Below are positions 16,341 through 63,701 of a stretch of DNA of 64,000 nt, piece after piece. The notes under the pieces were generated by a model, which was not told where the DNA came from, searched no databases, and worked only from the letters and a program-made list of their open reading frames with translations. The DNA comes from Nymphaea colorata (taxonomy: Eukaryota > Streptophyta > Magnoliopsida > Nymphaeales > Nymphaeaceae), in assembly GCF_008831285.2 (NCBI RefSeq), contig NC_045148.1, positions 9,801,001 through 9,865,000 on the forward strand, read 5' to 3'. The position numbers and the translations under genes are program-made. The first letter of the stretch is position 1, and each line of letters starts with the position of its first letter.

Positions 16341-17201
16341 TCAGTGCCCTCCTTGCTCCTCGCCCTTGAATTGGTCAGCACTGGGCACCTCCTTTTCTTC
16401 ACCATCGCAGCAAGGAGGTGGCGGTACGCTGTATGCAGTGACCGGGGACGATACGGGAGAAGGGGGTGCGTACTCATAACCTTGGGGAGGAATGGAACTT
16501 ATCATCAGTACATAACATTATTACCATTAGTAAGTTACATTAGTTCAATTATAATCTTTCGCCATACAGGGTTATTTTAATTTTCTTAGTTAAGGAACTG
16601 TCTCGGTTGGGGTCCTGACAAAAGGCTCAGCGAAGCCACTTAACCTTACCCATTTCTTTGCTCTGCCCCCTGTGAGGTCTTGAGCATTTGATTGCCCAAT
16701 TAGAGCGCCCCTTTACCTCTTTCATATTTCCCACTTATTTTCTGGCCTATATAGTCAATTTGGTCTAATGGCAAAATTTCACATGAAATTGAATAAACAT
16801 ATGAAATGCATGGAGATTATAAAAATGTCACAAAGATCCAAGTATTCTTTTCCAAGCAATGCTGCTAGGGCAGGGGCCCCTCCCCTTTATCCAAATTAGA
16901 GAGTGAAAGAATGACAGAATTCAATTAAACAAGCAAAAACAAAGATGTAAAATTGTTTAATTTTGTAAAACAAAAATGACAGCTGACATCTACAAATCAA
17001 AGAGCAATATGTTTTCAATGAAGAAACGACTCTCGATATTACTCATAGATTTTAAAAATTTAACAATTAGTTAACCTGGAGAGCAGGAACATGGACTCAC
17101 TAACCTTGTTTCTTTACCATTAATTCTCGTGCAAAAGCTTGGGAGAAGAGCATCAAGACAAGCACCAAGAGGATGGAAAAAGAAGAACGATTTGGCGCCA
17201 T
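16341..17201 (-). CDS. Two-exon secreted Pro-rich peptide (78 aa)
   Basis: Exon 1 (17105-17201) encodes a signal peptide starting MAPNRSS, with a QAFA cleavage context and then RELMVKKQ. It ends in phase 1 at AAG|GTTAGTG. Exon 2 (16341-16480) opens after CCCCAAG and continues in frame as YEYAPPSPV, a Pro- and Ser-rich stretch, then VPPPPCCDGEE and an acidic tail ending GGH. The intron is 624 bp. The TATA box is at 17300-17307. Only the terminal CC of the family's C-C-CC pattern remains. A second stop lies 13 codons on, after a GGGRS end typical of two sister genes, so the present stop looks derived. The product is probably extracellular; its function is unknown. The exon structure is inferred from frame, splice sites and paralogues. 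Confidence 0.65.
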
Positions 17202-17299
17202 CTCTAAGGGGATAAGAGAGGGAGATGAAGTTTAAGAAGGCAAAAGGAAAGAAAGGGAGGGAGAGAGTTTCTTGTGATTGGAATGCAATCCTCTTGGGC

Positions 17300-17307
17300 T
17301 ATTTATA
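17300..17307 (-). promoter_or_regulatory. TATA box of the 16.3-kb peptide gene
   Basis: TATAAATA on the minus strand, about 100 bases upstream of the ATG at 17201, in the shared GGCTATTTATA context. Confidence 0.6.
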
Positions 17308-18112
17308 GTGTACAGAGACTAGAAAGGGCTCAAGGCAAGTGGGCTTGTTCAACCCGAGCTAGCCTTGGGGTCAGGCTCATAAATATGACGCAGACACAAC
17401 TCTCGAGATAAAGTCATACCACGGAAGATTAGGTTGCCACACACCAAAAGTGATTGTGTTGAGGATGGAGGGAAGGGCCTTTCAACTAGGCGGCGGTATG
17501 AATGGGGGAAGGTGGAACCTTCGGCTTTCAACTGCGTATTTATTGTCAACAAACACATATTGAGACTTTTTCCCCCATCTAGAATAAGCATTTGTGGGTT
17601 TTCCTTGTTAAACCTTGGCTTAACCACCATATAACATGAATCTGAAGAAATATTAGTGTTACATATAACATACATTGAACTTTGTACGCCCAATGCCTAA
17701 GTACCTTTTGGACATAAGAAACAGTCAGCTTGGTGGTTTCATATGTCACATCCAAAAGAAAAACTGTGATCGTCAACAAAAGATAGAGACAAAGGGCTGT
17801 CACAATCACATTTAACTTATACCTTTTTTGGCTAACTTAATTAACCATGTCATATTGCAACTGCAAGCAGAAACCTTTGCAAATGAATATGTGAAAACAG
17901 TTTTTTACTTGTTTTCCTGTAGATATGTTTCATTTTGTAGTAATGAAGGTCGGCAAGACCTATCGCTCAGCAGCTTGCTTCGGAACACGTCAAAACAGTT
18001 CCCTACTGTGGTTTTGGTGTCATTCACTTGGATTAATCAGATTACCCTCTTCCTTCGGAACTAAGAACATGAATATCTCATGAGTTTTCCCCCTGATTAC
18101 TGTTAATAGGTT

Positions 18113-18113
<1 letters not shown>

Positions 18114-18162
<49 letters not shown>
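18114..18162. repeat. AT microsatellite
   Basis: A pure AT dinucleotide run that now sits inside a decayed peptide-gene first exon. Confidence 0.9.
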
Positions 18163-18165
<3 letters not shown>

Positions 18166-18205
18166 GAGAGAGAGTGGAAAAGGGGGAACGACGCTTCGGC
18201 GCCTT
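18163..18205 (-). pseudogene. Decayed first exon cut by a microsatellite
   Basis: Minus-strand AAGGCGCCGAAGCG aligns with the ATGGCGCC start of the 17.2-kb gene (ATG changed to AAG). It continues as RSPFSTL and then runs into the AT microsatellite where the hydrophobic core should be. No second exon is seen. Confidence 0.5.
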
Positions 18206-18510
18206 CTCCAAGGCCACGGAGAAATAGAGAAAGATAGAGAGCCCCGGCTGATAAAATCAGAACTGATCAATTCAAACTTGAGATTTGGTGCAAGTTGTCA
18301 TGACTGGCTGTATTATAGTGCGGGAAATTAAGCAAAATATGAAAAGTTATAATTAAGAATCAAGAAAAAGGCCTCCTCACAAGCAAAGGCAGAAAAAAGG
18401 AAAAGAAGAGAGAGGGAGCGAAATGCAGAGGGACTGGGAAAGATTAAAGATGGAGATTAAGGGAGGGAGAGAGATCTAGAGAGTTTTCACTGAAAGGGAT
18501 CTATTACAGG

Positions 18511-18768
18511 CCGGTGGACTTAGTCAAGCCAGGCCAGCCATTGCATGGGTGAGGCACATAAATATGATGATAATTATAACTCTTGTGATGAAAGCTGGGA
18601 AATTAGATGCCGCTGGATTTAGTCAAGCCAGCCAGCCGTCGCATGGGTGAGGCACATAAATATGATGATAAGCACAGCTCTTGGGAGGAAAACTGGGACA
18701 TTAGAGACTTAGAGACCGGTGGACTTAGTCAAGCCAAGCCAGCCATCGCATGGGCCAGGCACATAAAT
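18511..18768. repeat. Three tandem copies of a 99-106 bp unit
   Basis: Units start at 18511, 18610 and 18716 with CCGGTGGACTTAGTCAAGCC or a close variant, and include GCATGGGTGAGGCACATAAA. Single related copies occur near 6070-6170, 17340-17410 and 25080-25150, each next to a peptide-gene promoter or its relic. The unit may belong to the upstream promoter region of the family. Confidence 0.75.
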
Positions 18769-19782
18769 AATTGAATAATTCTTCTTTGATTGAGCCATGC
18801 ACAATCTTGAGACGCTTATGGAATTCAGATCTGCTTAATGTAGTCACATTAACATTTCCCCAACAAAGCAAGTTCCTGCGCAATACTGAACTGTCAGCTC
18901 CATGACATATCTAATCCATGTAGAGAAGGAGATGTCAAAGTTCTACTGATCTACTAACTGTTTCACCTGCTTAACAAATGGCCGAAGAAATTTTTGCAAA
19001 TATATATCAAATTTTCTGCTGGACTTGATTAAGAAGGAGAGAGGACCCATCATGAACTTTCGGTCCAAAACTTAATGTCAACACCATCACCTAGTTTCCA
19101 AGACACTAGGTAGTTGACAACCTACCATTCCCAGTTAATGAACAAATGAGACTCATCAACTGTTCTACACCCTATAGAATGAGTGGCTCCTATATGACAT
19201 AGTTAATTGTTTATGGATATTAAAGGTATATGTCATAGTCACAGAAAACTAGTTTTTTTATATATTTTACACTTTTTGAATTTAAATTAGTTTTAAATTA
19301 CTTTTTAAACAGACAAAATAGATAGTGCAAAGATTCAATGGGTATTGCCCACTGGAGCTAGTATTCGAATCCGCCCACAAGGCTTCTCCTTCCCTTGTCC
19401 GGACCCTAAGTTTTAGGGTTGCGTCCCCTCAGCCACCCCAAAACTATTGTACAGGGAGGGAGAGGAATCTGAAGAGGATTTAAATTGTGATTCTCAATAA
19501 ATGGGGTTGGAGCCCACTTATTTTTTATTGAACCACTTAAGCCCGACGTCACAAATAATTAACTGTACAACGTCACTTCCTTTGAACCAGAATCCAATAC
19601 AATGACTGTTTCAGCGTGAATGATGAACCCCAATGACTGTTCCTTCGATGAAAAACAGCCCGAAACAGTCTGAAAGATCAGCATGTATTTGCTAAAACCA
19701 AAATCCTTAGCTTTGAGATATAATTCAAGAACACTTGTCTTTCTTCAACTACCGTCGCACCAACTGCAGCCTGCAGGCGATC
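18769..19782. other. Upstream region of the receptor kinase gene
   Basis: No gene seen. It contains a copy of the dispersed block with GAGACTCATCAACTG (about 19145-19230) and AT-rich DNA. I could not pick a promoter element with confidence. Confidence 0.4.
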
Positions 19783-22700
19783 ATGAAGTCACCACCACCT
19801 TCCCAGTCCCACCTCCTCCCCTTCCTCATCCTCGTCTCCTTTTCCGTATTCTCCACACTCAGCTTAGCCAATCTCGAAGCAGAGGCCCTTTTGAGATGGA
19901 AAACTTCACTCCACAAGAAAGATTCGCTGTCCTCCTGGACCAGCAACTCCAGTCCCCGCAATTGGACAGGCATCGTCTGCAGCACCTCCGGTTCCATCAC
20001 GGAGATAAACCTCGCCCGCTCTTCCTTGGCGGGCACCCTTGCCTCCTTCAAGTTTTCTGCCTTCCCCAACCTCTCTCGCCTCGTCCTCAGTCTCAACAAT
20101 CTTTCCGGCAGCATTCCCCGGGGGATTGGCACTCTGACCAAGCTTGTCCATCTAGACTTGAGCAGCAACTCGTTCAATGGCGTGGTCACGCCGGAGGTCG
20201 GAAATCTCGTCGACCTCACCACCCTCGATCTCCACGACAACCAACTTACAGGAGCTATCCCTTACCAACTCACCGGCCTCCCCAAGGTCTTAATCTTCGA
20301 TTTGAGTGCCAACATCCTCGCAGCACCGGATCCATCTAAAGCCTCCGGCTTGCCGGCAGCGACATACCTCGGCCTGTCCAACAACAACCTCACCGGTGAG
20401 TTCCCACCCTTCGTGCTTCGTTGCCCCAATTTGGAGTTCCTTGACTTGTCGTGGAACAAGCTGACCGGCAAGATTCCAGCTGAGATTGCCACATCGCTAC
20501 CTAAGCTCCGTTACTTCAATGTCACTAGTAATGGCTTCCAAGGCCCAATACCAACCACGTTGTCAAAATTAGCCAAGCTAGAAGCCATGCATCTTGGCGG
20601 AAACAATTTCTCAGGTCAGATTCCGGAGTGGATCGCCTCTTTCGATAGCCTCCGCATCATCGAGCTCCATGAGAACAGCTTCTATGGCGGCATTCCTGGG
20701 TCTATCGGCCAGCTCAAATCGTTGGAGTGGCTCGATCTACACCAAGCGGGCCTGAATTCAACCATACCTGCGGAGCTTGGTCTCTGTCGGAATCTTACTT
20801 TCGTGAATTTGTCTGATAATAAGCTAACTGGTGCCCTCCCTTGGACTCTTGCTTACTGGAAAAAGATGAGAAACTTAGGCATGTCCGGTAATTCATTAAC
20901 AGGGGAGATAGTTCCCATCTTCCTCACCAACTGGACTCAACTGGACTCTTTGCAACTGCAGAGGAATCAACTTACAGGAAATATACCGCCGGATATCGGA
21001 TTATTGAAGGTTCTCACGCTCCTCTACTTGTTCGAAAATATGATTACGGGCTCAATCCCCTGGTCCTTGGGAAACCTTATCAATCTGAAGCAACTCGACC
21101 TCTCTAGGAACCGGCTCAGTGGCCCCATCCCACCCACAATCGGAAACCTGAAGCAACTCACCCTACTCAGCCTAGTTAACAACACACTGAGTGGAACTAT
21201 CCCTCATGAGATTGGAAACATGAGTTCTCTCAAGCACTTGGATATGAGTTTCAACAATTTGCAGGGTACGCTACCTCAATCCATCACTGAACTTCATAAT
21301 CTGGACTTCTTTTTCGTACTCAGCAACAATCTGTCTGGTGAAATACCACCGAACTTCGGAACCGTTGGAGGCTTAACTAGTGTGAGCTTCGCGAGGAACA
21401 ACTTCTCCGGCTCTTTGCCTTCAGGGATTTGTACTGGCGGGAAACTGATCAACTTCACTGCAAGTCAGAATAATTTCAGTGGGCCATTGCCAGCCACCCT
21501 CAAGAACTGCTCTAGCTTGAGGAGAGTTCGATTGGAGTGGAACCGTCTCTCTGGAGATATCTCCCAATCGTTCGGAGTGTATCCATATCTATGGTACATG
21601 GATGCAAGCAATAACAACCTCTTCGGGGAGATGTCCGTGTCATGGGCACAGTGCAGCAACCTCACTTCCCTCTACCTTGCGAACAACAAAATCTCTGGAA
21701 GAATACCACCGGAGATCGGCCGGTTACCCAAGCTCCAGGACCTCAACCTTGGTTTCAATTCCCTTTCAGGGAAAATTCCATCAGAGTTATTCGGCTTAAG
21801 CCTCATGTTCAGGCTGAATTTGAGTAATAATGGACTCTCTGGCATCATCCCCCTTAACATAGGCCAACTACCAAATCTGGGTACTCTGGATTTATCTTAC
21901 AACAATCTGAGCGGATCAATCCCGCGCGAGATCGGCAACTGTTCGAAACTACAACAACTGAACCTCAGCCACAACCATTTCATCGAGAAGATACCGTTCG
22001 AGTTAGGCAACCTGGTTTCACTGCAAGCAATGCTCGATTTGAGTTCCAACGATCTCACCGGCGAGATCCCGGCACAATTTGGGAAGCTTAAGAATCTAAT
22101 GATCCTGAACCTTTCAAGGAATCAGCTATCCGGTCAGATCCCGTCTGACTTCAGGGACTTGATCAGCTTGGAAAAAGTGGACTTCTCCTACAACCAACTC
22201 TCCGGCCCACTGCCGGACAACAAGGTGATATTGAACTCACCCTCTTCCGCATTCATCGGAAACCACGGCCTATGTGGGAAGGCCAAGGGTCTAATGGAAT
22301 GCCCTACCTCCAACCAAAACAAGAACTCTCGCTCAAAAATCCTAAAGCTAACTATACTGTTACCTGTGACACTTGCGCTGGTACTGCTGATCTTCTGCAT
22401 ATGCGTAATCTATAGGCGACACAGATCCACCTTTATAATCCCCCAGAACCACGATCGGGAGATCGCCATCTGGAAGGTGGAAGGGAAGCTGAGCTTCAAC
22501 GAGATCGCCGCAGCGACAGACAACTTCAGCGACGAGCATTGCATCGGTAGGGGCGGGTTTGGGAGCGTGTACCGCGCAGAACTGCCGTCCGGCCAGATAC
22601 TTGCCGTGAAAAGGTTGGAGGCGACGGAGGAAGGATATCAGGCAGTAGAGGAGAAGAGCTTCCAGAACGAGATCAGAGCACTGACGGAGGCCCGGCACCG

Positions 22701-23742
22701 GAACATTGTGACGCTGTATGGGTTTTGCACCAAGGAGAGGCGCATGTATCTGGTTTACGAGCATCTGGATCGAGGCAGCTTGGGGAACATGCTATACGGG
22801 ACCCAAGGGGAGTGGGAGGCTCTAAGTTGGGCGGCTCGGGTTCGGGTCGTGAGGGGTGTGGCCCATGCACTCTCTTACCTTCACCATGACTGCTCGCCTC
22901 CCATCGTGCACAGGGATATCTCCATCAACAACGTTCTCTTGGATACAGATCTTGAGCCTCGGGTCTCGGACTTTGGTACCGCAAAGGTTCTCGGGCCGGA
23001 TACCACCAGCTGGACCAACGCCGCTGGGTCCTACGGCTATATGGCGCCCGGTGAGTTGCTTTTGCTTAAAAAGTGTTTTAAAAGCATCAAACTTAAGTGA
23101 AATTTGGTTCATACTTTTGTTGATTTCTTTACTTGTAGTTGAGCGTTTGCATGTCTTTTGAAATCAAACAAAAATGAGTTCAGCTTCGTAACCTGCTTTA
23201 ATTCCATTTCTTCAGTATGTGAAAGCATTTTTGTTCATGTAAACATCTTTGAACTATTTCCCATTGGAAGAAGGAACTTAACGTTTTTTTTTTTTGGGTA
23301 ATAGATTGTAATATCTCATGGAAGAAGTCCCCTAATCTGACTTCCTTTCTTTTTTGGGTTTTCTGCAGAATTGGCATATACATTGAGAGTGACGGAGAAG
23401 TGTGATGTCTACAGCTTTGGAGTTGTAACGTTAGAGTTAATGATGGGGAAGCATCCTGGCGACATCATCTCCGTCTTGTCATCGGCGGCAGCCGCACAAA
23501 CTCCCGGTGGCAACCAGGAGTTCTTCCTAAAGGATGTGTTGGACCAGCGGTTACCCTTGCCGACCGGCCAGGTCGCAGGGGAGGTGGTCTTCTTGATATC
23601 CATAGCACTGGCATGCGTCCAGACTAAAGCTGATGCTCGACCCACCATGCGCCACGTCTCCCAGGAGCTCTCTGCTTGCTCTCATGCTTACCTCCCTGAA
23701 CCTCTTGAATCCATCACATTAAGCAGATTAGCCTACCACTAA
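19783..23742 (+). CDS. LRR receptor-like kinase, MIK2-like
   Basis: Exon 1 is 19783-23050 and exon 2 is 23369-23742. The phase-1 intron (318 bp, CCCG|GTGAGT to TTCTGCAG|AA) splits the kinase APE motif. The product is 1213 aa. I chose ATG 19783 because it begins a clean signal peptide (MKSPPPSQS, then a hydrophobic core); the longer frame starts only at a TTG. Order: LRR N-cap, about 31 LRRs, C-cap GLCGK/MECP, a membrane helix near residues 853-875, and a cytosolic Ser/Thr kinase. Catalytic parts are all present: GRGGFGSV near 921, AVKR Lys near 943, HRDIS near 1042, DFG near 1063, APE. The N-cap first Cys is Arg ([10 protein letters not shown]). HRDIS and overall layout fit LRR-XIIb MIK2-like receptors, which sense extracellular cues. 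The ligand is unknown, and it is somewhat longer than Arabidopsis MIK2. Confidence 0.94.
23051..23368 (+). other. Intron of the receptor kinase gene
   Basis: 318 bases from GTGAGTTG to TTTTCTGCAG. A T run lies at 23285-23297. It interrupts the activation segment between YMAP and ELAYT, a position where plant LRR kinases commonly carry an intron. Confidence 0.9.
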
Positions 23743-24199
23743 GGCCTAGTGTCTGAATTGCTTTCTACTTTCTTCATATTTCTTTTGAACATCAACCCGA
23801 TTTTTTATCAGTATATCTACTTGTATAATTTAAATAATTACTTATTTGAAGCAAGCTGTCAGATGCCTAAGATCTGCGATGGTCTTCTTTGACAATCTTG
23901 GACGAGTTACCCTTGGTTAAGTGGTCCGTCGCATTTGCAGAAATCTTGACTTATCCATGTATTTGCAGGAAGCCCCATAGGCACATTCAAATTTTGCTTA
24001 ATTACCAATTACTCAAATTTAAACAACTACATTTCACATGATATTACATTAATAACATGGCCCAGAAAAGTGGCAAATAATATAGTGAAGTTTATCAGCA
24101 TCTTCATCACCATGAGTAACAAAAGAAGCTGCGACATAGAGAAGCAAAAATAAGATCTCCCTCTCTCTCCCCTCCCCCCCCCCCCCCCTCTCTCTCTCT
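23743..24199. other. 3' flank of the receptor kinase; CT/C-rich tract
   Basis: No gene seen. A CT-rich and C-run tract at about 24152-24200 abuts the cellulose-synthase fragment and seems to mark its breakpoint. Confidence 0.5.
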
Positions 24200-24530
24200 T
24201 TTGTTAAGGGCACTTGCAACACCTCCAACAACTCCAACCATGTTCAGGATTGTAAGCGTAAGGGGCGGGAACAACGAAGTAGTCCATTTGAAGAGATAAA
24301 GCTCTCTGAGTCTGAACTCGTCTTCGTCACCAGCTGCTTTTACTGTAACTATGAAGTTTGTGGCCAGTGCTGGTAGCACCTTGAATAGGCCCTCGGAGAT
24401 GGCAAAGAGTTGTGCAAAGATGGCACCAAACACCTAAAATTCTCGTTCGGTACTAATCTTGGATGCTTACTCAGTTACTCTGCTGCTCCATCGAAGTTCA
24501 AGCACTCCATTTGATATGGTGGGAAGGAAA
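24200..24530 (-). pseudogene. Cellulose synthase (CESA) gene fragment
   Basis: Minus-strand translation gives, in order, PTISN, VLELRWS, then after two in-frame stops FGAIFAQLFAISEGLFKVL, TNFIVTVKAAGDEDEF, ELYLFKWTT and NMVGVVGGVASALNK. These are the consecutive landmarks of the C-terminal membrane region of plant cellulose synthases (PTISN, VLELRWSG, HLFA.FQG..K, TNFTVT.KA, ELY.FKWT, N.VGVV.G). About 20 residues are missing between PTISN and VLELRWS. The fragment stops where ALNKGY would continue, at the CT-rich tract. It lacks the catalytic domain, promoter and 3' end. It is a dead, probably captured or duplicated piece; the intact gene is not in this window. Confidence 0.8.
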
Positions 24531-24589
24531 AGTATGATATTTCTATGATCTTCAACGCAAAGGTTAATTGTGCAATGATCTTGTAACAA

Positions 24590-25240
24590 ACCAGGCCTTC
24601 ATTTCTCAGCATGTTTTACTCAACAAATTTTGTTGAACACAAGCTCCATTTGAATGAGAAGTGAATTTACGGATTAAATGCGATCAAGATCCGTCCTTGG
24701 CTAACAATAGATCCTTTGATCTAGCATCTAGCTAGTTCTCAAAATTGTGCATCACCTTCATATATTATGCTTCCGAAATTGTCTATCTCAAGTCAAACTA
24801 AGCAACAGCATGTCATGAGTCATGACAATCAAGTCACCACCTCCAAGCCTAATTAATGCTGTTGATTAGGGAGAAGGTAGCGCAATTGGAAGGCCATGAC
24901 AGTAAATGTTGTTTCCCCATGCATGCTGCCAAGTGGACCCAGACGCAGCCGGTTCACCTCGGTTAAATTAGCTGACAGACAGTATTGTATGCAGCATGCA
25001 TGCATGAAAAATTAATGACCCAAGACATTAATATCAATTCAGAAAACCATTGCATGTAATGTCTAACTGGAAATGGCTGGTGGACATAGGCAAGCCAAAC
25101 CAATCATTGGCTCAGGCACATAAATACGTGACATGCACAACTCCACTGAATAAAAGTTTCGCCAAACAAGATCCCTCTGTCACACGCAAGTTGTGCTTCC
25201 TGTGGGGTTCGGCAAGGAGTAATCTTGACATTCAACTGCC
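24590..25240. repeat. Segment duplicated at 5.38-6.24 kb
   Basis: It shares ordered words with 5380-6240, including AACAATAGATCCTTTGAT and the GGTGGACATAGGCAAGCC region. It is shorter than the other copy because an internal part is lost near 24850. Confidence 0.6.
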
Positions 25241-25259
25241 CCTCAAGAAATGACTAGTA

Positions 25260-26555
25260 AAAATTACCACAGTGAATTTATTTATCTTATTGTAACTTGT
25301 TGGATTTAGTAAAAATTACGAAGAAGAAACCGACTCCAAAAGGTCAACCTTTTCTTTATTAACACTTTTCTTTCACAGAGGACCACACACCAAACAAAAT
25401 AAATAAATTTAAATTGTGTGTCTCTCTCCCATTGTAGCACAGTAATGAGCGAGACCCATCCACTATGATAGGTTGGGCCCATAACGTTGCTCCATAAAAT
25501 GAGTGGCTCCTATATGAGCAATGGAGCATCTTTGCTAGAAGGATATCCTTCTAGCCTATGTGTGCGCAGGTATTGAAAGTATATTGTCATCGTATAAAAA
25601 TGAAAGGTAGGAAGCAATCAAACTCTTAATATTGCTCATCACACGAAGGGGCAGTCGTTGCAGCTGGCTCGCCTTGACACAGACAGGCTCATCGGCTCAT
25701 CTTTGAGATGTTCCAATACATGCCATTACTCTGCGTCCTAAAACACAACATCCACCAGTACTTAGAATTTAAAGTTAGTCTCTAGGCCATAATTAGGTTC
25801 AACCTTATTCATATTTAGACCGACCATTTTCTCCATTTCCATAAGTTTTGGATTGAACCCTGTGCATGTGTTTGGGACTAAAAAAGTAATACACCTTAGT
25901 GCCCACCTCTGGACCCCAAAAGAAGCTGTGTGTACGTGCATAATAAAGTGATATGATTTTAGTCAGGTTCACCCCCACTTAAGAACATTATGGCAAAAAT
26001 AGCTTGCATCCATCTACATATATACATTTTTGATATCATTAACCCATCCCCTTTTTTGGAAAAAGTAAGTTCCCAAAAAGGCTTAAAGTGAAGGCAAAAT
26101 GAAAAAAAAAAAAAAAAGAAATATTATAGGCATCCAAGGTTATTTGACTTTTCAAAGTTGAGTACGACATAAATTCAGAAGCAAGATTTTTGTAGACGAA
26201 AGAAAACAGATCTAATAATTGAAGCATGTGAGGTGGAAAACAGCACTGTACATGTTTGGGCTCTTGCAATTGGTGATGCCCTTCCAATTAAAATAACAGT
26301 ATTTTTTTTATATAATTTAATATATAAATATAATTAATTATAATATATATGTGTCAATCTTAAAAAATAAGTTACCAAACCACTCCAGGGCTCAATATTA
26401 AGGGTTCTTAAAAGGTTAACTTTTTCATTCTTCCCATCTTCAGTTCACTTAATTTGCTTTCGACATTTGGGAACCGAAGCCTAAATGAGCACCTAGCAGT
26501 TGTTTTAGGCAGGCAGGCTCACGGGCTCATTTTTCAACTGTCGTGTACATGCCAT

Positions 26556-26560
<5 letters not shown>
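25260..26560. repeat. Dispersed blocks downstream of the 26.9-kb gene
   Basis: No gene seen. 25380-25720 matches 33880-34230. 25740-25860 matches the start of the 34.4-kb segment (TTTAGAATTC/TTTAAAGTT words). 26090-26290 is a partial copy of the block ending TGCTGGAAAAC near 36350 and 41660. Confidence 0.5.

Positions 26561-26561
<1 letters not shown>

Positions 26562-26615
<54 letters not shown>
26562..26615. repeat. AT microsatellite
   Basis: A pure AT run, followed by a second short run at about 26628-26644. Confidence 0.9.
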
Positions 26616-26617
<2 letters not shown>

Positions 26618-26731
26618 AAGAAGCAAATATATATATATATATATGCTGCAATGCATATTAATTAAGGAACACGGACTTCTTTATTGGAAATAGAAAGCCA
26701 CCACATTCTCCAAGCAGGAACTTATTACATC

Positions 26732-26866: not shown

Positions 26867-27400
26867 TCATGATCTGCCGCCACCAAGCCCCTGACCTTCT
26901 TGCTCATCAGCTTTGACCACCCCCACCTTCTTTCCAGACTCGCTGTGTTGTGCATCAGCTGGGCAGCAGGTGTAGCCACACATGCGGCAGCCGTAGTCTC
27001 CTGTTATCTATCTCCTGTTAGCTATTGAGGATATTTTCTTAATTTATCGCAAATTAGAGAAAGCATTGTAACGCTAATTGTCCCTTAATTAATTTACTTT
27101 CTCCTGATTTTCTCCTTTGAAATACGGCCTTCAACGGAGGAGAGAGAGAGAGATAAAAAAAAAAAAAGAAAACACATGAGATTTACCCATAGAATAACAG
27201 AAATGAAATATCTGAAGACGATATGAGCATCATTTCAGGTTCATTACCCAAAAGTAATAAATATCTGCTAATTGGAGCGAAGAACAGAAATATTGGAATC
27301 ACAAACCTTGGTCCTTCACTATTTTTCGTGCCAAAACTTGGGGAATGACAAGCAGGACAAGCACAAAAAGGATGGAAAAGGAAGGAAGTTTTAGCGCCAT
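26867..27400 (-). CDS. Two-exon secreted Cys peptide (75 aa), CRMCGYTCC type
   Basis: Exon 1 (27307-27400) encodes MALKLPSFS, a hydrophobic core, the PQVLA cleavage context, then RKIVKDQ. It ends in phase 1 at AAG|GTTTGTG. Exon 2 (26867-27000) follows ATAACAG and reads DYGCRMCGYTCCPADAQHS, then a Lys/Gly-rich tail ending GGGRS. The intron is 306 bp and both junctions keep frame. The Cys pattern is C-x2-C-x3-CC. The mature peptide would be about 51 residues if the signal is cut after VLA. The TATA box is at 27482-27489. The nearest relative is the 43.3-kb gene, with which it shares a nearly identical 3' flank. The compact Cys motif could form disulfides or bind metal. Function unknown; a defence or signalling peptide is a guess. 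Confidence 0.8.
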
Positions 27401-43275: not shown

Positions 43276-44196
43276 TCATGATCTGCCGCCACCAACCCCC
43301 TGACCTTCTTGCACATCAGCTTTTGCCACCCACACCTTCTTTCCAGTCTCTTTGTATTCTGCATCAGGTGGGCAGCAGGAGTATCCACACCAGCCATTAT
43401 TGCAGCCAACAGGGGGTGGATCGATTTGTCCGTACTGATCTTTCGCAGTCAAATCTTTCAAACCTGCTACTAAGTTGGAATGCAAATAATTATGGGTAAT
43501 TAATACGTATATTAACTAGATCAGCTTTCACTCTAACACACATGCACTCACACAACGGCTAGCCATCCAATGATCTATCTCTATCCCCTGTTAGCTCTGG
43601 AGGATGTTTTCTTATTGTATGGCAAATTAGAGACAGCCTAGTAGCTTAATGCGGCCCTCGTTAAAAACTTATATATATATATATATTATTAAAAGAAATT
43701 AACATGAATTGACAGCTTAGAAGGTCCTATATATAACTACGCTTGAAGAAAATAAATAACAACTAATGTCGGGCTTTAGGAAGAGCAATTTTACGGAAAA
43801 CATACAGATACTAGACTTTATGGTCATAGGTCGTCTATTCCAAGAAAACGAAACGGTGAAGTCTAAATTACAAAGATAAAAACCAATTAAGTAGTTTCTT
43901 GAAGAGTTTGAAATACTGCCTCCAAAGGAGAAGAGAGCAAAAAAACAATAAGTGGGAAACGAATGTGTTTTTACCCGTAAAATAACAGATACAAAATATC
44001 CGAAGAGGATGTGACCATCATTTCAGATTTATTACCCGTAAAGTTGTAAATATCGGATAATTGGATCAGAGAAGAGAGATATCCTTAGGATTCACAAACC
44101 TTGGTCCTTCACCATTTGTCGTGCCAAAACATGGGGGAAGACCAGCAGTACAAGCACAAAGAGCATGGAAAAGGAGGAAGAAAGCTTTAGCGCCAT
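43276..44196 (-). CDS. Two-exon secreted Cys peptide (94 aa), CNNGWCGYSCC type
   Basis: Exon 1 (44100-44196) encodes MALKLSSSFS, a hydrophobic core, the PHVLA cleavage context, then RQMVKDQ. It ends in phase 1 at AAG|GTTTGTG. Exon 2 (43276-43463) follows GTAGCAG and reads LKDLTAKDQYGQIDPPPVG, CNNGWCGYSCCPPDAEYKE, then a Lys-rich tail ending GVGGGRS. The intron is 636 bp. The Cys pattern is C-x4-C-x3-CC. Mature length would be about 70 residues. The TATA box is at 44273-44280. Compared with the 26.9-kb gene it has 18 extra residues ahead of the Cys motif, and over the aligned C-terminal 34 codons nine codons differ, all changing the residue. It is probably extracellular; function unknown. Confidence 0.8.
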
Positions 44197-53240: not shown

Positions 53241-53256
53241 AATGCTAGTTATAATT

Positions 53257-54769: not shown

Positions 54770-56560
54770 GCATGCTCCCACTATTCCATCACATGGCCTA
54801 ACTTTGTCGTCTTTCTTTATCTACTGACAATGACAACGTGACATGCATTGTCGCTGGTGCGCGATATTCTATGCCAGCTTTGCTCAATAAACATCAACCA
54901 GCGAAGGGCATTATCTTTTACCCTTAAGAGCATTTCTCTTTGTCTAGAGTATCTTCATTTTTTCCACCTCTTCCTATCTTCATTTTTTCCACCTCTTCGT
55001 TTTTTCTCCTTTTCTGATCAGTTTTCTTTCTGTTTTCATCCTCGAAAACAAGCTTCTTTTCACGTAGTTTACACACGTTCAAGGAGGTTTCTATTAATGC
55101 CGTTTTACCGGCTGCTCGTGATGTTGCTGGCGCTGCATACCTTTTTTTATTGTTCACACTCTTTCATGTGGATGCAATGAGAATCTGAACTTATTGGTTC
55201 CTTTTGTCTCAAACTTGCGACTCTAAATCGACTCTCGCTAATAGAATTTGTATAAGAAAATCAATTTCCTTTAACAATCAGCGGCAGATTCCGTCCAGGA
55301 TTTTGTGGCAGTTTTTTAGCTAAAACATTTGACAAAGTTGAGATATGTAGGGGCGGAGATACATGGTCATTGGTGTGAGCCATTGCCCACACCAGTCCAT
55401 TAAGATTCTCATTCAAATGTTTAAATTGTAACATGATAATTCAAACATTACTGGAGAACCTGATGTACTTTAAGTGTCCCTCAGTCAGAAAATTTGGGTT
55501 CCGTCTTACATGGCATGAAGCCTATACCCAAATCCAAATTCGGATTCAAACCCAATTCTGAACCATTTGTGACCGGACCCAGTTGAAACTTTTTTAACTT
55601 GATGTAGTCACTGGGCTTAACTTTTTCGCCTTTCTTTAATAAGTGACAATCAAAGCTGGTTATATGTGTTATGGTTAATCATAAAAATACCCTTTGCTCG
55701 TATAAAAAAAACAAGTTTTTAGTAAGATAAAAATGAAAATAAAAATAAAAAGTGAAAATGATTATAAATGACATGTTTTTTTTCTTACGGAAACATTTCC
55801 TTTCTTTTATATTATAGCGTACTTGTACCTGCATGGCACATGCATAACGATGCATGCAACCTTTAGTCTGCATTATCGCTAGTGCACAGTGACGCGCAGC
55901 TTTGCCCATTCACATCACGAAAAGAAAATGCCCCGATTAAAATACAACAAAGAAACATGTAAAGGCGTAAAAAATAATTGTGAAGAAAGAAAAAGTCTAA
56001 AATGTTCACTACTTTATAAAAATTTTCATAAATATATTATCTTCCTTTTGGTGTTGCATGCACAGTGATGTGCACGCAACTCAATCTTGAATCTGCAACG
56101 ACGATTTTCCTTTTCCTACTTCTCTTTTTTCTCACAAGTTGTCTGATCATCTTTTTTCAGAAAAATCCCACTGTATCCTTGTTAACATTGTTTCTCTGTC
56201 AGCAAATCGATTTTCTGCGGAGAGGGAGAATAGTGAAGACTCCCCTGAGTTGAAGCAAGCCTGAAGGATGCCTAAAATTGAGTAACGAAAGACGAATACT
56301 TTTCCCCATAAGGCGTATAATATATACTCATCAACCTGCATGTTCTTAGCGTGCACAGTGGTTTCACTTTACTTGGGTACGCGTGATATTGTAAAAGGGA
56401 ACTCATAAATAGTGTGCTAAGATGCACAAAGTTCTGCATTATGCTTCAAGGAGAAACATACAAGCGTTACACAGCGTGGGCTTACTCTGCCATCGCTTTA
56501 TTTCAGCATCAACTTTAAGAAGTTGATGCACTCCTGGTTCACACTGATGAATTACGTAAA
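54770..56560. repeat. Segment duplicated at 60.98-62.71 kb
   Basis: GACAACGTGACATGCATTGT, CTGCTCG..GTTGCTGGCGCTGC and CGCGTGATATTGTAAAAGGG occur in both places in order. The last part is the 3' flank of the nine-module gene. The 55130-55600 part also matches 58350-58650, the far-upstream region of the same gene, which implies an additional lost gene copy to the left. Confidence 0.65.
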
Positions 56561-56564
56561 GGCT

Positions 56565-57795
56565 TCAGTTTTGTCCTGCAGCCTTTGCTGCAGCCTGCTT
56601 TCTGAACTGTGCAAACTCTGCAGCCGAGCAGCATTTGTGGCCGCAGTTATGTCGGCATGGTCCTTGGTGGAAGCCTCCGTGCATATCTTCAGCACCCTTC
56701 ATGACAAACTCCGCGTATTCCTCAGCCGAGCAGCATTTGTGGCCGCAGTAGTGATGGCAGCCTCCGTGCATATCTTCAGCACCCTTCTTGACAAACTCGG
56801 CGTATTCCTCAGCCGAGCAGCATTTGTGGCCGCAGTAGTGATGGCAGCCTCCGTGCATATCTTCAGCACCCTTCTTGACAAACTCGGCGTATTCCTCAGC
56901 CGAGCAGCATTTATGGCCGCAGTAGTGATGGCAGCCTCCGTGCATATCTTCAGCACCCTTCTTGACAAACTCGGCGTATTCCTCAGCCGAGCAGCATTTG
57001 TGGCCGCAGTAGTGATGGCAGCCTCCGTGCATATCTTCAGCACCCTTCTTGACAAACTCGGCGTATTCCTCAGCCGAGCAGCATTTGTGGCCGCAGTAGT
57101 GATGGCAGCCTCCGTGCATATCTTCAGCACCCTTCTTGACAAACTCGGCGTATTCCTCAGCCGAGCAGCATTTATGGCCGCAGTAGTGATGGCAGCCTCC
57201 GTGCATATCTTCCGCACCCTTCTTGACAAACTCGGCGTATTCCTCAGCCGAGCAGCATTTGTGGCCGCAGTAGTGAGGGCATCCGTGGCCGCCTCCATGC
57301 ATATCTTTGAGCGCATCGGCGCTGGCTTCCTTTTTCACAAACTCAGCATATTCTGCTGCCGAGCAGCACCTGTGGCCGCAGTAGTAACGGCATCCATGAC
57401 CGTATCCACCACCGCCGTGACCGTAGCCGTAGCCGTACCCTCCTCCGTGCTTGTCATCGTTGATTTGGTTCACGTCCGCTTCCTTGGAACCTACTCGCAA
57501 AGGCAAAGATGAATGAGAATGACGTGAAACTCGTTTACTGACTTAGCAGAAACATCAGCATGAAAGAGTCTGCAAGTGGAACGTCGAGGTAGAAAGCTAA
57601 TGAGTCTACTGCCATGGCCCTCCACTAATATCAAGAAGTGCTAAAAGTAAAAGGAAACTAGAAACAGAGACGGCTGTTGATCAGGAATAACAAGACAGAA
57701 AACAAGCAACTCATTTAGACACAGAAACAGAGATTTCATCTTCTCCCTGCAATTAATAACATCTCAAATCTAAGAAAATGTATATAACGGAGAGG

Positions 57796-57838
<43 letters not shown>

Positions 57839-58164
57839 AAAGAACAGCAGTTAAACAAAGGAAAACGAGAGGGGAACTTAGCGCAGTAAAAGCTACAGAA
57901 ACTGAGGATTTGAATGACATAAAACTGTCGCAAACTCCGTTTTCGTGCTAGAATGAACAAGTTTTTTCAACTAGTTTACACGTTAAGCGGGTACATGTAA
58001 CTTTAGTGCCTTCAAAACGGGCTAATGTTGCCATCCTGCATGGAACTTAGAAAAGGAAAAAAAAAAAGAACAAAGAGACCACGTTGATTCTCACCCAGAA
58101 CTGGGGAGAAGGCCAAGAGAAGGAGAACAAAGAGAATAGAGGGGGAAGCAAGCTTGTGCGCCAT
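56565..58164 (-). CDS. Nine-module CxxxCxxxCC secreted repeat protein (331 aa)
   Basis: Exon 1 (58095-58164) encodes the signal peptide MAHKLASPS, a Leu-rich core and SPVL. It ends in phase 1 at CTGG|GTGAGA. Exon 2 (56565-57490) opens after GAGTAG and restores frame as GSKEADVNQINDDK. A Gly/Tyr/His stretch follows, then nine modules of the form CHHYCGHKCCSAEEYAEFV with linker KKGAEDMHGG. Seven modules are 29-aa (87-bp) near-identical repeats; the first (CRYYC) and last (CRHNC) are diverged. The intron is 604 bp with an AT microsatellite. The TATA box is at 58220-58227. Each module pairs four Cys with several His, so metal binding or disulfide-linked miniproteins are possible. KK in the linkers could be processing sites. 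The two-module paralogue lies at 62.7 kb. No known function assigned. Confidence 0.9.
56721..57330 (-). repeat. Coding 87-bp tandem array, seven units
   Basis: CTCAGCCGAGCAGCATTT starts at 56721, 56808, 56895, 56982, 57069, 57156 and 57243, exactly 87 bp apart. Units differ by single bases. The silent variant TTATGGCCG occurs in units 3 and 6 only, 261 bp apart, which points to a three-unit block duplication. Confidence 0.95.
57799..57837. repeat. AT microsatellite in the intron
   Basis: An AT run in the nine-module gene's intron. The two-module gene has one at the matching place (63325-63353). Confidence 0.85.
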
Positions 58165-58219
58165 AGCTCCTTAACTAAAGAGTGTAGCTTGTGACGAGAA
58201 ACGCTTTACCCTCTCAGCC

Positions 58220-58227
58220 TATTTATA
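58220..58227 (-). promoter_or_regulatory. TATA box of the nine-module gene
   Basis: TATAAATA on the minus strand, about 56 bases upstream of the ATG at 58164. Confidence 0.7.
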
Positions 58228-58932
58228 ATGTTCACGAAAGTGGGGAAAGTAAAAGGTGAATCGTAAAGATGGAGAGTTACTTTCTCTGCTTCAATTATTC
58301 AACCTTATGCAAAGTTTGTCATTTTGCGATCAAAACGTGAGGAACAGCCATTGGCTGCTCGTGATAGTGTTGGAGCTGCGTAGCTTCCCATTGCTTGCAA
58401 CCCTTTCTTTTGAATCCGAAGTCTGGATTCGTTTCCACTTCCAGGACTCCAAATCGACTAGCTTTAATTGGATTAATTTTATAGAAAGAAAACCAAGCTC
58501 CATTAACAGTCTACTGCAGATCCAATCCGAGACGATTTGGTGGCAGTTTCTCTGCTTAACTACAATGTTTGAGTAGATCAAATAGCCTAAAGTTCATACT
58601 CAAATCTGAATCTAGATCTGAATCTGAACCATTTATGGCCGGACGCAGTACCAACATTATTCGTAAAATTGACAGCGGACAGTGGACTGTCGTGTAGGGA
58701 GCCTTCTTCAATCTCATCCTTGAAGCACGTGGCCCCTTTTGATGAGAAAGATCGTCTGAATTGCGTGGAAGCTGCCTTCTGGTGCAGTTTCTGCCATTTC
58801 CAGAATCAAATGCATTTGTCCTTGTCCGCTGTGTGTACGAATGTCTGAAATGGGTGATAACAGTTTTGCACAAGTTAAACAACGGTAAAAAGAGCAGGAA
58901 AAAAATAAAAAAGGGTATTGCTTTATCTCTTA

Positions 58933-59010
58933 GGGTTGTGGCGCAACCGGTTACACAAGCGGCTGTTGAGCAGCAGGTCGTTTGTTCAAATCTCGTGACT
59001 GCTTCGTGAG
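58933..59010 (+). mobile_element. tRNA-derived SINE head
   Basis: An A-box-like TGGCGCAACCGG (58938-58949) and a B-box-like TGTTCAAATC (58983-58992) are about 45 bases apart, as in RNA polymerase III promoters of tRNA-derived SINEs. No tRNA cloverleaf is complete, and the 3' end is not delimited. Confidence 0.5.
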
Positions 59011-59342
59011 AACTAACTTAACATAGCCAAGGCTTTGGAGGCAAGACAATGGCTCTCTGTGAAAACCGACAAAGAATGAGCTAAAGTGAACTCCATTATT
59101 TATCTATCTTTCAGAAAGGTTCAAATTAAATATTAGACTCATCAAACACTTGAAGGAAAGGAATTATTTTAAGATGAAACATCATCTATGCAAATCAAAA
59201 AGCATATTCGGCATCCAGTATTATACTCCCTAACACACCGCCGTTGATTTGAAAAATAACTCTGCATTTCATCTGTACTTCAGCACCGTTTCTTTTCAAT
59301 GAACATTTTTCCCACTGGATCTCTGTGAGTTCCTTTCTTCCT

Positions 59343-59525
59343 AGTCGAGGGTGTTAGCATATAATTCCTTCTTTCACAAGTTAGGAGTGAGTGGGGAGAT
59401 TAGTCGGGAGTGTTAGACATGCAATAACTTCTTCTACAAGTTGTTTTGGAGTGAGTGGGGAGATTAGTCGGGAGTGTTAGACATACAATAACTTCTTCTA
59501 CAAGTTATTTGGGAGTAAGTGAGGG
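59343..59525. repeat. Three tandem units of about 58-64 bp
   Basis: TAGTCGAGGGTGTTAG or TAGTCGGGAGTGTTAG starts at 59343, 59401 and 59465, followed each time by CTTCTTCTACAAGTT or a variant. Non-coding. Confidence 0.75.
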
Positions 59526-60980
59526 GATACGCCGAAGCTCCCATGCAACTTTTCATCCTTTAAGGTTCTATGTTTTTGGGTACTGCCTAATTTTTGCACC
59601 AATCCTTTCACGATTTGTTTAATTCTTTAAAGCTGGATTCCTTTTTTTCAGGGGCGGAGGGAGGGGGGGCTCGGGCCATGGCTCGGGTGAGTCGGGAACA
59701 AAAAAAAATTATATGTAAAAAATCAAAGTTTAGTCCGACCCGTCGCTCCTCTTGATCTTACCGTCGCTCCTTTTGGCCCGACTCACACATGGTTTGCCCC
59801 GCTCCTAACTTCCCCCTCGTCTTCTTCTTTTGTTTGGTTCTCTGTAGGCGTTATGCTTTGGTCGGCAGCACCATAATTTTAACGAGCCACTTGTTGAATA
59901 ATTAAAATGCTATGAGTCGGGACTCGGGAGTGGGCGTTCAGGACTTTGAATAATTAAAATGCCCGTCATGAGAAAAATGAGGACGCTTTTGGGAATAATA
60001 AAAATAAAAAAAGAATTAAATAAAAATGATGGCGTGTGGAAGGTTGGCGTGGCCCTCGTGACTGTCGGTGTCGTATACTCAAAAATTCACCTCTAATAAA
60101 ATGAAGAAGGTGGGCGAATCTTTTGACGCCCGCTTGTAAAGGGCATTTTTGTCTTTTTGAACATGCAGATTTTCCATTTTCAATTTTGTCCAGGTTTTTC
60201 TTTTGGCGATATGGAAGTATAACGTCTTTCATTCCATTAAATTTGAAGCTCGTGGAGAAAAATTATGTAAAAATATTTTTCTTTTTTTATTACAAGTGAA
60301 AAGTTATTCTACTGATCTTATTTGAAGTTGATAATCCACACGTTATAGTAAAAGATAATATATATATGAATTGGTTAACAAGTTCAAGTTCTCTAGGCTC
60401 CAACAAAGCTGCGTTAGAGCTCTCTGAGTTTCTAAGCATCAGCCCCTAAGCTTGAGCTGTGTGGCGTATGCCACTCTAGTAGAGTTCAAGCCGAACCTAA
60501 GAATCCTACCTTTAATAGACTAATTAATTAAAGAGGTTTGAAATTCTCTATTAAGGAGCACTAATATAAGAAATCTTATGCGTAATAAACTAATTAGGTG
60601 GAAAACCAACATGCAAATTAAAAATTATGTGGGTCTATTGCAAGACAAGAACCGGCCAGCAGGGGCCCTGGCCCCGCCCCACCCCTACCTAAAAGAAAAA
60701 TAATAATAATTTACATGTGAGTTAAAAAATATCTTTATTTTATATAAAAATTTTGTAAAATAATAGTTTTAGCTCTTGAAAAAATTTTAAAACTATAATT
60801 CAACCTCTCTCATAAAAATTTGCGGCCCTCTACCGACAAGCCCAACATCTACAAGCCCAACATCTAACTCCTTAAGGTAAGGTCCCATCATTTGTGGCCT
60901 CTCTCGTAGAGAAAGGTCCCATCATTTGTGGCCTCTCTCATAGAATCCCTTTATGCTCCAGCAACATAATATTTTTTATC
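59526..60980. other. No gene recognised
   Basis: 59650-59970 carries GGGGCGGAGGGAGG and repeated CTCGGG/CCCGAC words like the ends of the hAT-type elements. The rest is AT-rich without coding signal. Confidence 0.4.
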
Positions 60981-62715
60981 GACAATAATAGAAATGCCTG
61001 TTCCTACTGTTCCGTCACATGGTCTACCTTGCTCGCCTTCGTTTAGTAGCAAGTGACAACGTGACATGCATTGTCGTTGGTGCAGCCTTGCTCAATAGAC
61101 ATTAATGAGCCCTTAAAGGGCGTTTCTCTTTATCTAGAGTATCTTCATCTTTTCTTTCGCGTTTGATTGTTTGAAATTTTGATTCGAGGATGAAAATTTC
61201 AGAAACATAATTCATCTTCAAATTAGAATGAAATCAAAATTACATGTTTTAGTTTCCTAATGTTAGAAACAATATACTTTATTTGTTTAATAATTTTAAT
61301 ATCTTAAAAATGAGCATTTGGTTTCTAAAATTCCATGATTCTATGGTATATCAAACGCCCCCTTGGATTTCCTTTTTGTTTTTCTCCTCTTCTGATTAAG
61401 GGCATTTTTAATCTTTTTTTGTTTTCATCTTTTCCTCCTAAAAACAAGGTTTTAGTGCTAAAACAAGCTTCTTTTACTGGCTGCTCGTGTTGTTGCTGGC
61501 GCTGCTTACTTCTTTTTTATTGTTCACAGGTGCAGTCAGAATCTGGACGTATTAGTTCTTTTTTGTTTCAAACTTACGACTCTAAATCGACCATCACTAA
61601 TCAAATTTGTGTAAGAAAACTATGCTCCATTAACAGTCCGCGGCAGATTCAGTCCAGGATTTGGTGGTAGTTTCTTTACTTAGCTAAAGTATTTGACAAA
61701 GTTATACATGTGGCATGAAGCCTATACCCAAATCCAAATTCTAATTTGAATCCAAATAAGAACCATTTGGGAGGGGATCCAATTCCACACTTCATGCCAT
61801 TCAGTTGGAGTGCTTTATGAAAGAATAGAACTTGTCATCAACTGTCAAGTAAAGCTAGTTATATGCAAACTCGTGTGTACAAGAATTTGTGCATAATAAC
61901 CAAAATAACTTTGATATCAAAAAGTAAAAAGCTATAAAGAAAGTTAAAAGTTCAAAAAATACATTTTTTTTATAAGAAGCTTCTAAAATGTACCAATAAA
62001 TGATTTACTTATCTTTTCTTGGAAAAAGGATTTTTTAATTTTCCCACTTTAACCTTATATGAGGGGCTCCTTTTTTGTTATTTGCACTTTTGGTTCAAAG
62101 GCATTTTAGTCTTTTGCTCCTGAATTGCATTGTGTGTTCCGCTCCGCTCAATGAATCTCTTTATTAACGTTGTCTTTTATAAGCAAATTGATTTTTGTAG
62201 AGGGGGAGAGTAATCAAGTCTCTCTTGAATTCAAGCTTAAATGTTACCTATGGTTGTGTTTGTTTCACCATGAATCTCAGATGAACCGGGATTTGAAATT
62301 ATATGATCTCAGATTCATAGATTTCTAATCACCCTTAAATCCATGGTTTTTAATATGTAGCATAGATTTCTAATCACCCTTAAATCGTTTAAACTCAGGA
62401 TCTATCAAAGGCTATCAAACAACCAAAAGCGCATATGTTTTAGCCTATAAGGTATATAATATTTACTAATCAACCTGTGGCTGTACATTCTCAGCGTGCA
62501 GAGTGGTTTCATTTTACTTGCGTACGCGTGATATTGTAAAAGGGAACTCATAAAATAGTGTGCTAAGATGCACAAGCTTCTGCATTATGCAAAATGGAGA
62601 AACATACAAGCATTATACAGCATGCAGCGTAGGCATCGGCTGTCGTCGCTTTATTCCAGCATCAACTTTAAGAAGTTGATGCACTTCCCATACATACTGA
62701 TGAAGTGCAGAAAGC
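60980..62715. repeat. Segment duplicated at 54.77-56.56 kb
   Basis: The partner copy; its right end is the 3' flank of the two-module gene. 61480-61750 matches 55130-55600 and 58350-58650. Confidence 0.65.
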
Positions 62716-62717
62716 CT

Positions 62718-63322
62718 TCAGTGTTGGCCTGCAGCCTGCTTTGTGAACTCTGCAAACTCTGCAGCCGAGCAGCATTTGTGGTGGCAGAAGTAATGGCAAT
62801 GGTGACCAAAACCATCGGCAGTGGCTTTCTTATTTACAAACTCAGCATATTCTGCTGCCGAGCAGCACCTGTGGCCGCAGTGGTAACCGCATCCGTGTCC
62901 ACCACCGCCATGACCGTGGCCGTAGCCACCACCGCCGTGGTAGTACCCTCCTCCGTGCTTGTCATCGTTGAATTGGTTCACGTCCGCATCCTTGGAACCT
63001 ACTGCAAAGGCAATTATGAATGAGAAGCACGTGAAATTCGGTTACCGAATTAGCAGAAACAGGAGCATGAAAGAGTCTCCAAGTGGAACGTCGACGTAAA
63101 ATGCTAACGCTTCTGCCGCCATTGCCATCGACTAACATCAACAAAAGCTAAAAGGAAAATGAAACTACATACAAACAGAGACCGCTCTTGAACAGGGCAT
63201 AACTAGCAAGAAAACAAGCAACTCATTTACAAAGAAAAAGAGAGAGAGATATATATGACATTTTGGTTTCATGTTCTCTGCAATTAATAACATCCCAAAT
63301 CTAAGAAAATGTACATTAAAGA

Positions 63323-63353
<31 letters not shown>

Positions 63354-63701
63354 CGCATTTAGCAGCTAAACTAAGGAAAAAGAGAGAGAAAACTGAATGT
63401 AGCGATTACCTAAAAACGCATTAAGAAACTGACGACTTGGATGAAATAAAGCTGTCGCAAACCTAGTTTTCGAGCTAAAATTAACAAGTTTTTTCTACTA
63501 GTTTACACGTTAAGCGGGTTCCCACTGTAACATTTGTGCCTTCAAAATGGGGTAGTGCCGCCACCCTGCATGGAACCTTAGAAAAGGAAAAAAGAAAAGA
63601 AAAGGAACCATGAGACCACCTTGATGCTCTCCCAGAACTTGGGAGAAGGCCAAGAGAAGGAACACAAAGAGAATAGGGAGGGAAGCAAGCTTCTGCGCCA
63701 T
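62718..63701 (-). CDS. Two-module CxxxCxxxCC secreted protein (about 120 aa)
   Basis: Exon 1 starts at ATG 63701 with MAQKLASLP, a hydrophobic core and SQVLG. At the site where the 58.1-kb paralogue has its GT donor this gene reads GA (63631-63630). An in-phase donor CAAG|GTGGTC lies 12 bases on (exon 1 then 63620-63701). Exon 2 (62718-62998) reads GSKDADVNQFNDDK, a Gly/His/Tyr stretch, then CGYHCGHRCCSAAEYAEFV and CHYFCHHKCCSAAEFAEF, ending AAGQH. The intron is about 621 bp. The TATA-like box is at 63764-63771. Two modules is probably the ancestral number. Whether it still splices correctly is the open question. Confidence 0.72.
63325..63353. repeat. AT microsatellite in the intron
   Basis: An AT run at the same intron position as in the nine-module gene. 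Confidence 0.85.

Follow-up and report, generated by a model that had tools for sequence, protein, structure and literature searches.

Class II glycine-rich proteins (GRPs) of plants are described in a review as having a signal peptide, GG(X)3GG repeats and a cysteine-rich C-terminal motif (PMC5852109). In the class II protein AtGRP3 of Arabidopsis, the cysteine domain is required for binding the extracellular domain of WAK1 (PMC4777284). A cysteine-rich piece of a dodder GRP likewise binds tomato CuRe1, and this protein, CrGRP (epitope Crip21, a CuRe1 ligand), is described as a class II wall GRP with its activity in the C-terminal cysteine-rich stretch (PMC7576778, PMC8096328). The DC7.1-type GRPs, represented by a celery protein (P0010) and by the Nymphaea colorata proteins P0001 and P0004, combine a hydrophobic, signal-like N-terminus and a glycine-rich part with two copies of C-x3-C-x3-CC-S-A. 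A literature search for DC7.1 together with cysteine and glycine-rich protein, or for agNt84, found no paper, and a search for Nymphaea colorata with glycine-rich found none on the genes described here, as judged by titles and the beginnings of abstracts.

Here we analyse a 64,000-nucleotide stretch of the N. colorata genome (C11:9801001-9865000, the window; all coordinates are window coordinates, and some run past its right end), which holds five two-exon genes for putatively secreted cysteine-containing proteins, loci 1 to 5. The array to which they belong very probably consists of tandem class II, DC7.1-type GRP genes. The described systems compare with it as follows. First, compared with the DC7.1-type GRPs, locus 4 has nine modules and loci 1-3 are without the glycine-rich stretch. 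Second, the likeness to AtGRP3 is one of domain layout, i.e., a putative signal peptide and a cysteine-rich C-terminus (PMC4777284). Third, CrGRP has six cysteines with other spacing, and its recognition by tomato is not taken as its native role (PMC7576778, PMC8096328).

Two-exon gene models of the five loci

The exons of the five loci are as follows.

17105..17201, minus strand: locus 1 exon 1, putative signal peptide (sequence reading; tblastn homology to other exon 1s)
16341..16480, minus strand: locus 1 exon 2, CC only (sequence reading, alignment)
27307..27400, minus strand: locus 2 exon 1 (sequence reading, tblastn)
26867..27000, minus strand: locus 2 exon 2, C-x2-C-x3-CC (sequence reading, DNA comparison)
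44100..44196, minus strand: locus 3 exon 1 (sequence reading, tblastn)
43276..43463, minus strand: locus 3 exon 2, C-x4-C-x3-CC (sequence reading, genome search)
58083..58164, minus strand: locus 4 exon 1 (an alternative donor would put its end at 58095)
56565..57490, minus strand: locus 4 exon 2, nine C-x3-C-x3-CC-S-A modules (sequence reading)
63620..63701, minus strand: locus 5 exon 1, annotated DC7.1-like GRP (protein match, two-exon fit)
62718..63001, minus strand: locus 5 exon 2, bounds of annotated isoform X1 (the acceptor first read gives 62998)

The initial annotation had placed five two-exon genes on the minus strand here, and all five are present with sensible in-frame models. The first exons measure 97, 94, 97, 82 and 82 bp in loci 1 to 5, all beginning with ATG GCG (Met-Ala), and the intron is in phase 1 throughout. 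By reading, the N-terminus is hydrophobic in five of five loci, and the signal peptide would come from exon 1 and the mature protein from exon 2. Locus 2 has the cysteine motif C-x2-C-x3-CC, locus 3 has C-x4-C-x3-CC, and loci 4 and 5 have C-x3-C-x3-CC; locus 1 keeps CC only. This agrees with the earlier reading of four C-x(2-4)-C-x3-CC motifs and a fifth reduced to CC. The earlier claim of first exons of 70-97 bp with a Met-Ala start and a phase-1 intron stands except for its lower bound: locus 4 has two phase-1 donors, giving a 70-bp or an 82-bp exon 1, and the latter is favoured because of homology to the annotated gene at about 68.9 kb. At locus 5, the isoform X1 acceptor lies 3 nt upstream of the one first read.

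All junctions had also been said to keep frame, which is true of the five models. However, frame-keeping alone is weak evidence, because with the modelled donor three phase-1 open-frame acceptors exist at locus 2 and seven at locus 3, and it is homology that carries the weight. Between two blocks of matching DNA, locus 2 has 25 bp where locus 3 has 189 bp; locus 2 is without the stretch holding the locus 3 acceptor, and its predicted acceptor is therefore not the counterpart of that of locus 3. A MAFFT alignment of this stretch did not reproduce the upstream matching block. Locus 1 exon 2 ends early relative to loci 2 and 3, and DNA corresponding to their last codons lies in the 3' untranslated region (UTR) of locus 1.

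Loci 1-4 have a TATA-type element, TATAAATA, upstream, as had been claimed for them; it precedes the ATG by 63-106 bp. Locus 5 has TATAAATT. The element TATAAATA occurs 14 times versus 5.0 expected in shuffles, with 6 of the 14 upstream of family copies, and CATTATAAAT occurs five times versus 0.6 expected, in each case on the minus strand and upstream of a copy.

Probable kinship to DC7.1-type glycine-rich proteins

The protein of locus 5 is 99% identical (one residue differs) to the NCBI entry 'glycine-rich protein DC7.1-like isoform X1' of N. colorata. The neighbouring gene at 68.9 kb corresponds to another annotated N. colorata protein, P0002, named LOC116263739 isoform X4, whose first module is C-x2-C-x3-CC. 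Loci 4, 5 and this neighbour each carry two or more family modules. The DC7.1-type module is C-x3-C-x3-CC-S-A with an acidic/aromatic stretch after it; C-x3-C-x3-CC-SA is matched nine times in locus 4, and both modules of locus 5 conform to the type. The same module is shared with annotated N. colorata GRPs, with Victoria proteins and with the celery DC7.1-like protein, in which C-x3-C-x3-CC-SAAEEA occurs twice. The initial annotation had likened the genes to plant glycine-rich/CORA-type proteins, which holds, and had set them apart from these by the cysteine motif, which does not, the motif being present in annotated N. colorata GRPs and celery DC7.1-like. By reading, a glycine-rich region follows the signal peptide in loci 4 and 5 only and in none of loci 1-3, and GG(X)3GG forms one stretch in locus 5, with none seen in locus 4 or in loci 1-3.

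A protein profile search was run with a nine-row alignment including loci 1-3, against proteins of about 66-210 residues preselected by shared words. It returned 10 matches (six from N. colorata, three from Victoria cruziana and the celery DC7.1-like protein), with loci 1-3 not among them. Exon 2 of locus 5, searched against the N. colorata genome at E up to 1, gave at least 33 matches, namely 14 on C11 in the array, 12 on C2, 6 on C7 and one chance-like match on C12 (all minimum counts), so that the family forms clusters on C11, on C2 at 1.48-1.57 Mb and on C7 at 20.05-20.25 Mb. Among 18 loci read, C-x3-C-x3-CC is present in 11 of 11 C2 loci (nine places), and the spacing variant C-x3-C-x(3-5)-CC in 6 of 6 C7 loci. 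When the ten proteins were fitted as two exons to 22 genomic stretches, exact match required, four were placed (P0001, P0002, P0004 and P0005), all from N. colorata, and in each a phase-1 intron follows an exon 1 of 82-97 bp. P0003 and P0008 had no exact fit on these stretches, and the other four proteins come from other species. Loci 1-5 match this N. colorata GRP gene structure of an 82-97 bp signal exon followed by a phase-1 intron.

Judged from sequence, loci 4 and 5 are assigned to the DC7.1-type GRPs and not to a new family; a novel cysteine-peptide family had been considered for these two loci and is ruled out by the module in annotated GRPs. For the array as a whole, a new peptide family unrelated to GRPs is very improbable. 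Loci 1-3 would fit it in having neither glycine-rich sequence nor PF07172 matches, but it is already contradicted for loci 4 and 5 by the shared module, and the first exons of loci 2 and 3 match those of loci 4 and 5 in DNA (72-74% over 76-78 nt) within one same-strand array.

The Pfam model PF07172 (curated cut-off 30 bits) had been proposed for comparison, and its answer is divided: locus 5 scores 34.2 bits, above the cut-off, and locus 4 and loci 1-3 do not reach it. Among ten items scanned, P0003 and P0010 (celery, 53.6 bits) pass, P0004 and P0006-P0009 stay below the cut-off, and P0005, P0002 and mature locus 5 are without a match; P0008 carries PF07172 in the precomputed listing, though below cut-off in our own scan. 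Several results weigh against the DC7.1-type reading of the array. The locus 5 match is gone once the signal peptide is removed, and a passage of PMC2912341 cites PF07172 as an example of a model whose signal peptide gave a false match in an older release. The whole locus 4 protein has no match (its first 107 residues reach 20.2 bits, below cut-off), nor do loci 1-3 or P0002, and the two matches of a whole-genome PF07172 search, in which exons are read separately, both lie outside the array. Beyond Pfam, the celery match in the profile search is weak (E = 0.09), the exact x3 spacing occurs in just one of the six C7 loci, and locus 4 exon 1 scores 38 against GRP exon 1s, inside the background described below. 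Because PF07172 support depends on the signal peptide and the genome search misses the array, family membership rests on the cysteine module together with gene structure and not on Pfam alone; a C13 locus found with PF07172 alone is without the cysteine module. The kinship of locus 4, whose own exon 1 lies within background, rests on exon 2 and on 1257 bases of DNA that match locus 5 at 76%.

Of other profiles, PF17162 reached 27.2 bits on locus 4 (cut-off 27), with no single stretch passing by itself, and was taken for a repeat artefact; the 15.1 bits of PF12669 on locus 2 (cut-off 27) were put down to chance. An Rfam scan of the window gave no match at gathering score.

Selection was estimated as the ratio of nonsynonymous to synonymous substitution rates (dN/dS, NG86), exon by exon. 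Exon 2 of loci 4 and 5 is under constraint, with dN/dS of 0.24 between the two and 0.29 for locus 4 versus the 68.9 kb gene; locus 5 versus the 68.9 kb gene gives 0.94 at very low divergence, their exon 2s being 98.2% identical over 224 aligned bases. For exon 1, locus 4 versus the 68.9 kb gene gives 0.69.

Locus 4 shows an unusual module expansion; its protein (82-bp donor) has 335 residues, 36 Cys, 37 His and the nine C-x3-C-x3-CC-S-A modules. Its second exon contains one further feature.

56668..57281, minus strand: 87-bp tandem array within locus 4 exon 2, 7.1 copies, 98% matches, 29 residues per unit

One module would have become nine through this 87-bp tandem duplication, and the expansion is recent, because the units are 98% alike. 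In a PDB sequence search, the first 149 residues of locus 4 had one match (E = 0.15), and an AlphaFold prediction of exon 2 made without an alignment (mean predicted local distance difference test 58.3, predicted template modelling score 0.31) was too poor a model to use. A 329-residue open frame runs antisense to exon 2 (56523-57512, plus strand), probably because the 87-bp period is a multiple of three.

Divergence of loci 1-3

Loci 1-3 would be array members with a diverged mature part: all three are without the glycine-rich stretch, and locus 1 also lacks most of the cysteine motif. None has the DC7.1-type module, CC being followed by DG, PA and PP, and locus 2 exon 2 resembles GRPs in CGY-x-CC only. 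As read from the sequence, what links them to the GRPs is exon 1, a phase-1 intron, the TATA box and their place in the array. Scored against GRP exon 1s of C2, C7 and Victoria, the first exons of these loci reach 48-59, and among 1000 shuffles of each not one did. Among 81 background hydrophobic peptides, 76 score 39 or less, and five score 91 or more and are, by score, family members missed by the filter; this control is rough, the background being mostly not known signal peptides.

The points against the DC7.1-type reading that concern these loci are the following. Locus 1 has no DNA match to loci 4 and 5, exon 1 included, and the protein match of locus 3 to locus 5 is not significant (E = 0.15). 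Exon 1 dN/dS is 0.92 for locus 1 versus 2, 0.93 for locus 1 versus 3 and, among the DC7.1-type genes themselves, 1.01 for loci 4 and 5. Exon 2 of loci 2 and 3 gives 1.21 (44 codons), and fewer of its sites are identical than in the 3' UTR (110/128 vs. 187/194, p = 0.001). Relaxed evolution, diversifying evolution or a conversion tract in the 3' UTR could each account for this last pattern.

The same pattern bears on whether loci 1-3 are decaying array copies, i.e., pseudogenes alike only through recent duplication, which we regard as a serious possibility, though short of an even chance. Exon 2 of loci 2 and 3 looks unconstrained and more divergent than the 3' UTR, locus 2 is without the locus 3 acceptor, and locus 1 ends early with CC only. 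Other copies in the array are plainly decayed (1652-1729, ~65.7-67.0 kb, ~71.2 kb, and ~74.2-75.4 kb, the last carrying an in-frame stop), and none of loci 1-3 turned up in the protein set searched. However, all three have open frames, a usable donor and a TATA box, and exon 1 has a dN/dS of 0.30 between loci 2 and 3. That the signal exon of this pair is better conserved than its mature exon (0.30 vs. 1.21), with the cysteine motif kept in two of the three loci, could instead suggest fast-diversifying secreted peptides, for signalling or defence, derived from the GRP array. We consider this unlikely. It draws on the dN/dS point estimate of one informative pair of 44 codons, and a genome search with locus 3 exon 2 finds only loci 3 and 2 (two of two candidates). 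Its odds are lowered further by the locus 1 figures, namely the exon 1 values given above and an exon 2 value of 0.43 versus locus 2 (34 codons, poorly alignable).

As for annotation, the family had been thought hidden by its exon structure and easily missed. Four annotated relatives share that structure, so it need not hide the family, and two array genes with it are annotated (locus 5 and the 68.9 kb gene). A search with the locus 3 protein had no match in the protein set, and the profile search found annotated paralogues and not loci 1-3, although these were rows of its alignment (the search is word-limited and does not prove absence). These results support, without proving, that loci 1-3 were missed in annotation; easy oversight would apply to these three and not to locus 5.

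Extent of the array and its significance

The five genes claimed initially are all there, but the array is larger. Copies were traced by tblastn of the exons over the window and 40 kb on each side and by pairwise DNA comparison; weak tblastn rows outside the named copies (E about 0.01 to 1) were treated as chance. About 11 copies, intact or decayed and all on the minus strand, form a tandem array of ~74 kb, from 1.65 to 75.4 kb. The two leftmost precede loci 1-5 and the other four follow them, in this order.

1652..1729, minus strand: exon 1, decayed, without start codon (tblastn); TATAAATA at 2024-2031
3600..3696, minus strand: additional intact exon 1, similar in type to those of loci 1-3 (tblastn, genome search); TATAAATA at 3962-3969; no recognisable exon 2
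~65.7-67.0 kb, minus strand: decayed copy (tblastn, DNA comparison)
68113-68941, minus strand: intact annotated gene (P0002), just beyond the window (exact two-exon fit)
~71.2 kb, minus strand: fragment (tblastn)
74.2-75.4 kb, minus strand: copy with an in-frame stop (tblastn)

By DNA similarity, the copies fall into two groups, one of loci 1-3 with the two left copies and one of loci 4 and 5 with the right copies. A genome search with locus 2 exon 1 finds only loci 2 and 3 and the copy at 3696. For the exon 1 at 3600-3696, tblastn finds no exon 2, and of many frame-keeping candidates none is family-like by eye. The idea that annotated isoform X4 arises from an upstream exon 1 spliced into locus 5 was ruled out, P0002 being wholly encoded by its own copy at 68113-68941. 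The isoform X4 label on a separate tandem copy suggests that the LOC116263739 gene model may span neighbouring copies.

Other features of the window lie between and around the copies.

7735-8639: 301-bp unit in three tandem copies, about 99.5% identity
9274-15755: Copia-type retrotransposon lying between the copy at 3696 and locus 1; its direct terminal repeats of ~300 bp are 88% alike, and it has an RVT_2 open frame (209 bits)
19735-23742, plus strand: gene for a leucine-rich repeat (LRR) receptor-like kinase, lying between loci 1 and 2; one long frame holds the LRRs and the first part of the kinase domain, and a 123-residue frame at 23371-23742 is probably the kinase remainder
28000-49500: numerous diverged direct repeats, several of them offset by about 5 kb, flanking loci 2 and 3 and lying between them; in these repeats tblastn finds no peptide-family exon besides loci 2 and 3

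By analogy with known GRPs, the encoded proteins would be secreted to the cell wall. Their cysteine modules may there bind wall-associated receptor ectodomains or wall partners, in the manner of AtGRP3 with WAK1 or the dodder GRP with CuRe1, a mechanism that we put forward tentatively. More modules might make a multivalent ligand or a cross-linker. A bolder combination strikes us as improbable, namely that locus 4, with its nine 29-residue-type modules, mostly near-identical and of recent origin, behind a single signal peptide, is a multivalent Cys/His protein (a polyvalent receptor ligand, a metal-binding wall cross-linker, or a precursor cut at Lys-Lys into small peptides) and that loci 1-3 are at the same time a water-lily peptide lineage freed from the GRP scaffold and now diversifying.

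On the DC7.1-type reading, the array opens no new peptide class. For annotation, the point is that the protein set searched yielded none of the three diverged copies, while two array genes of the same structure are annotated. For the family, the array would represent a known wall-protein family remodelled in tandem in an early-branching angiosperm, with the modules multiplied in one copy, the glycine-rich body absent from others, and the signal exon kept.

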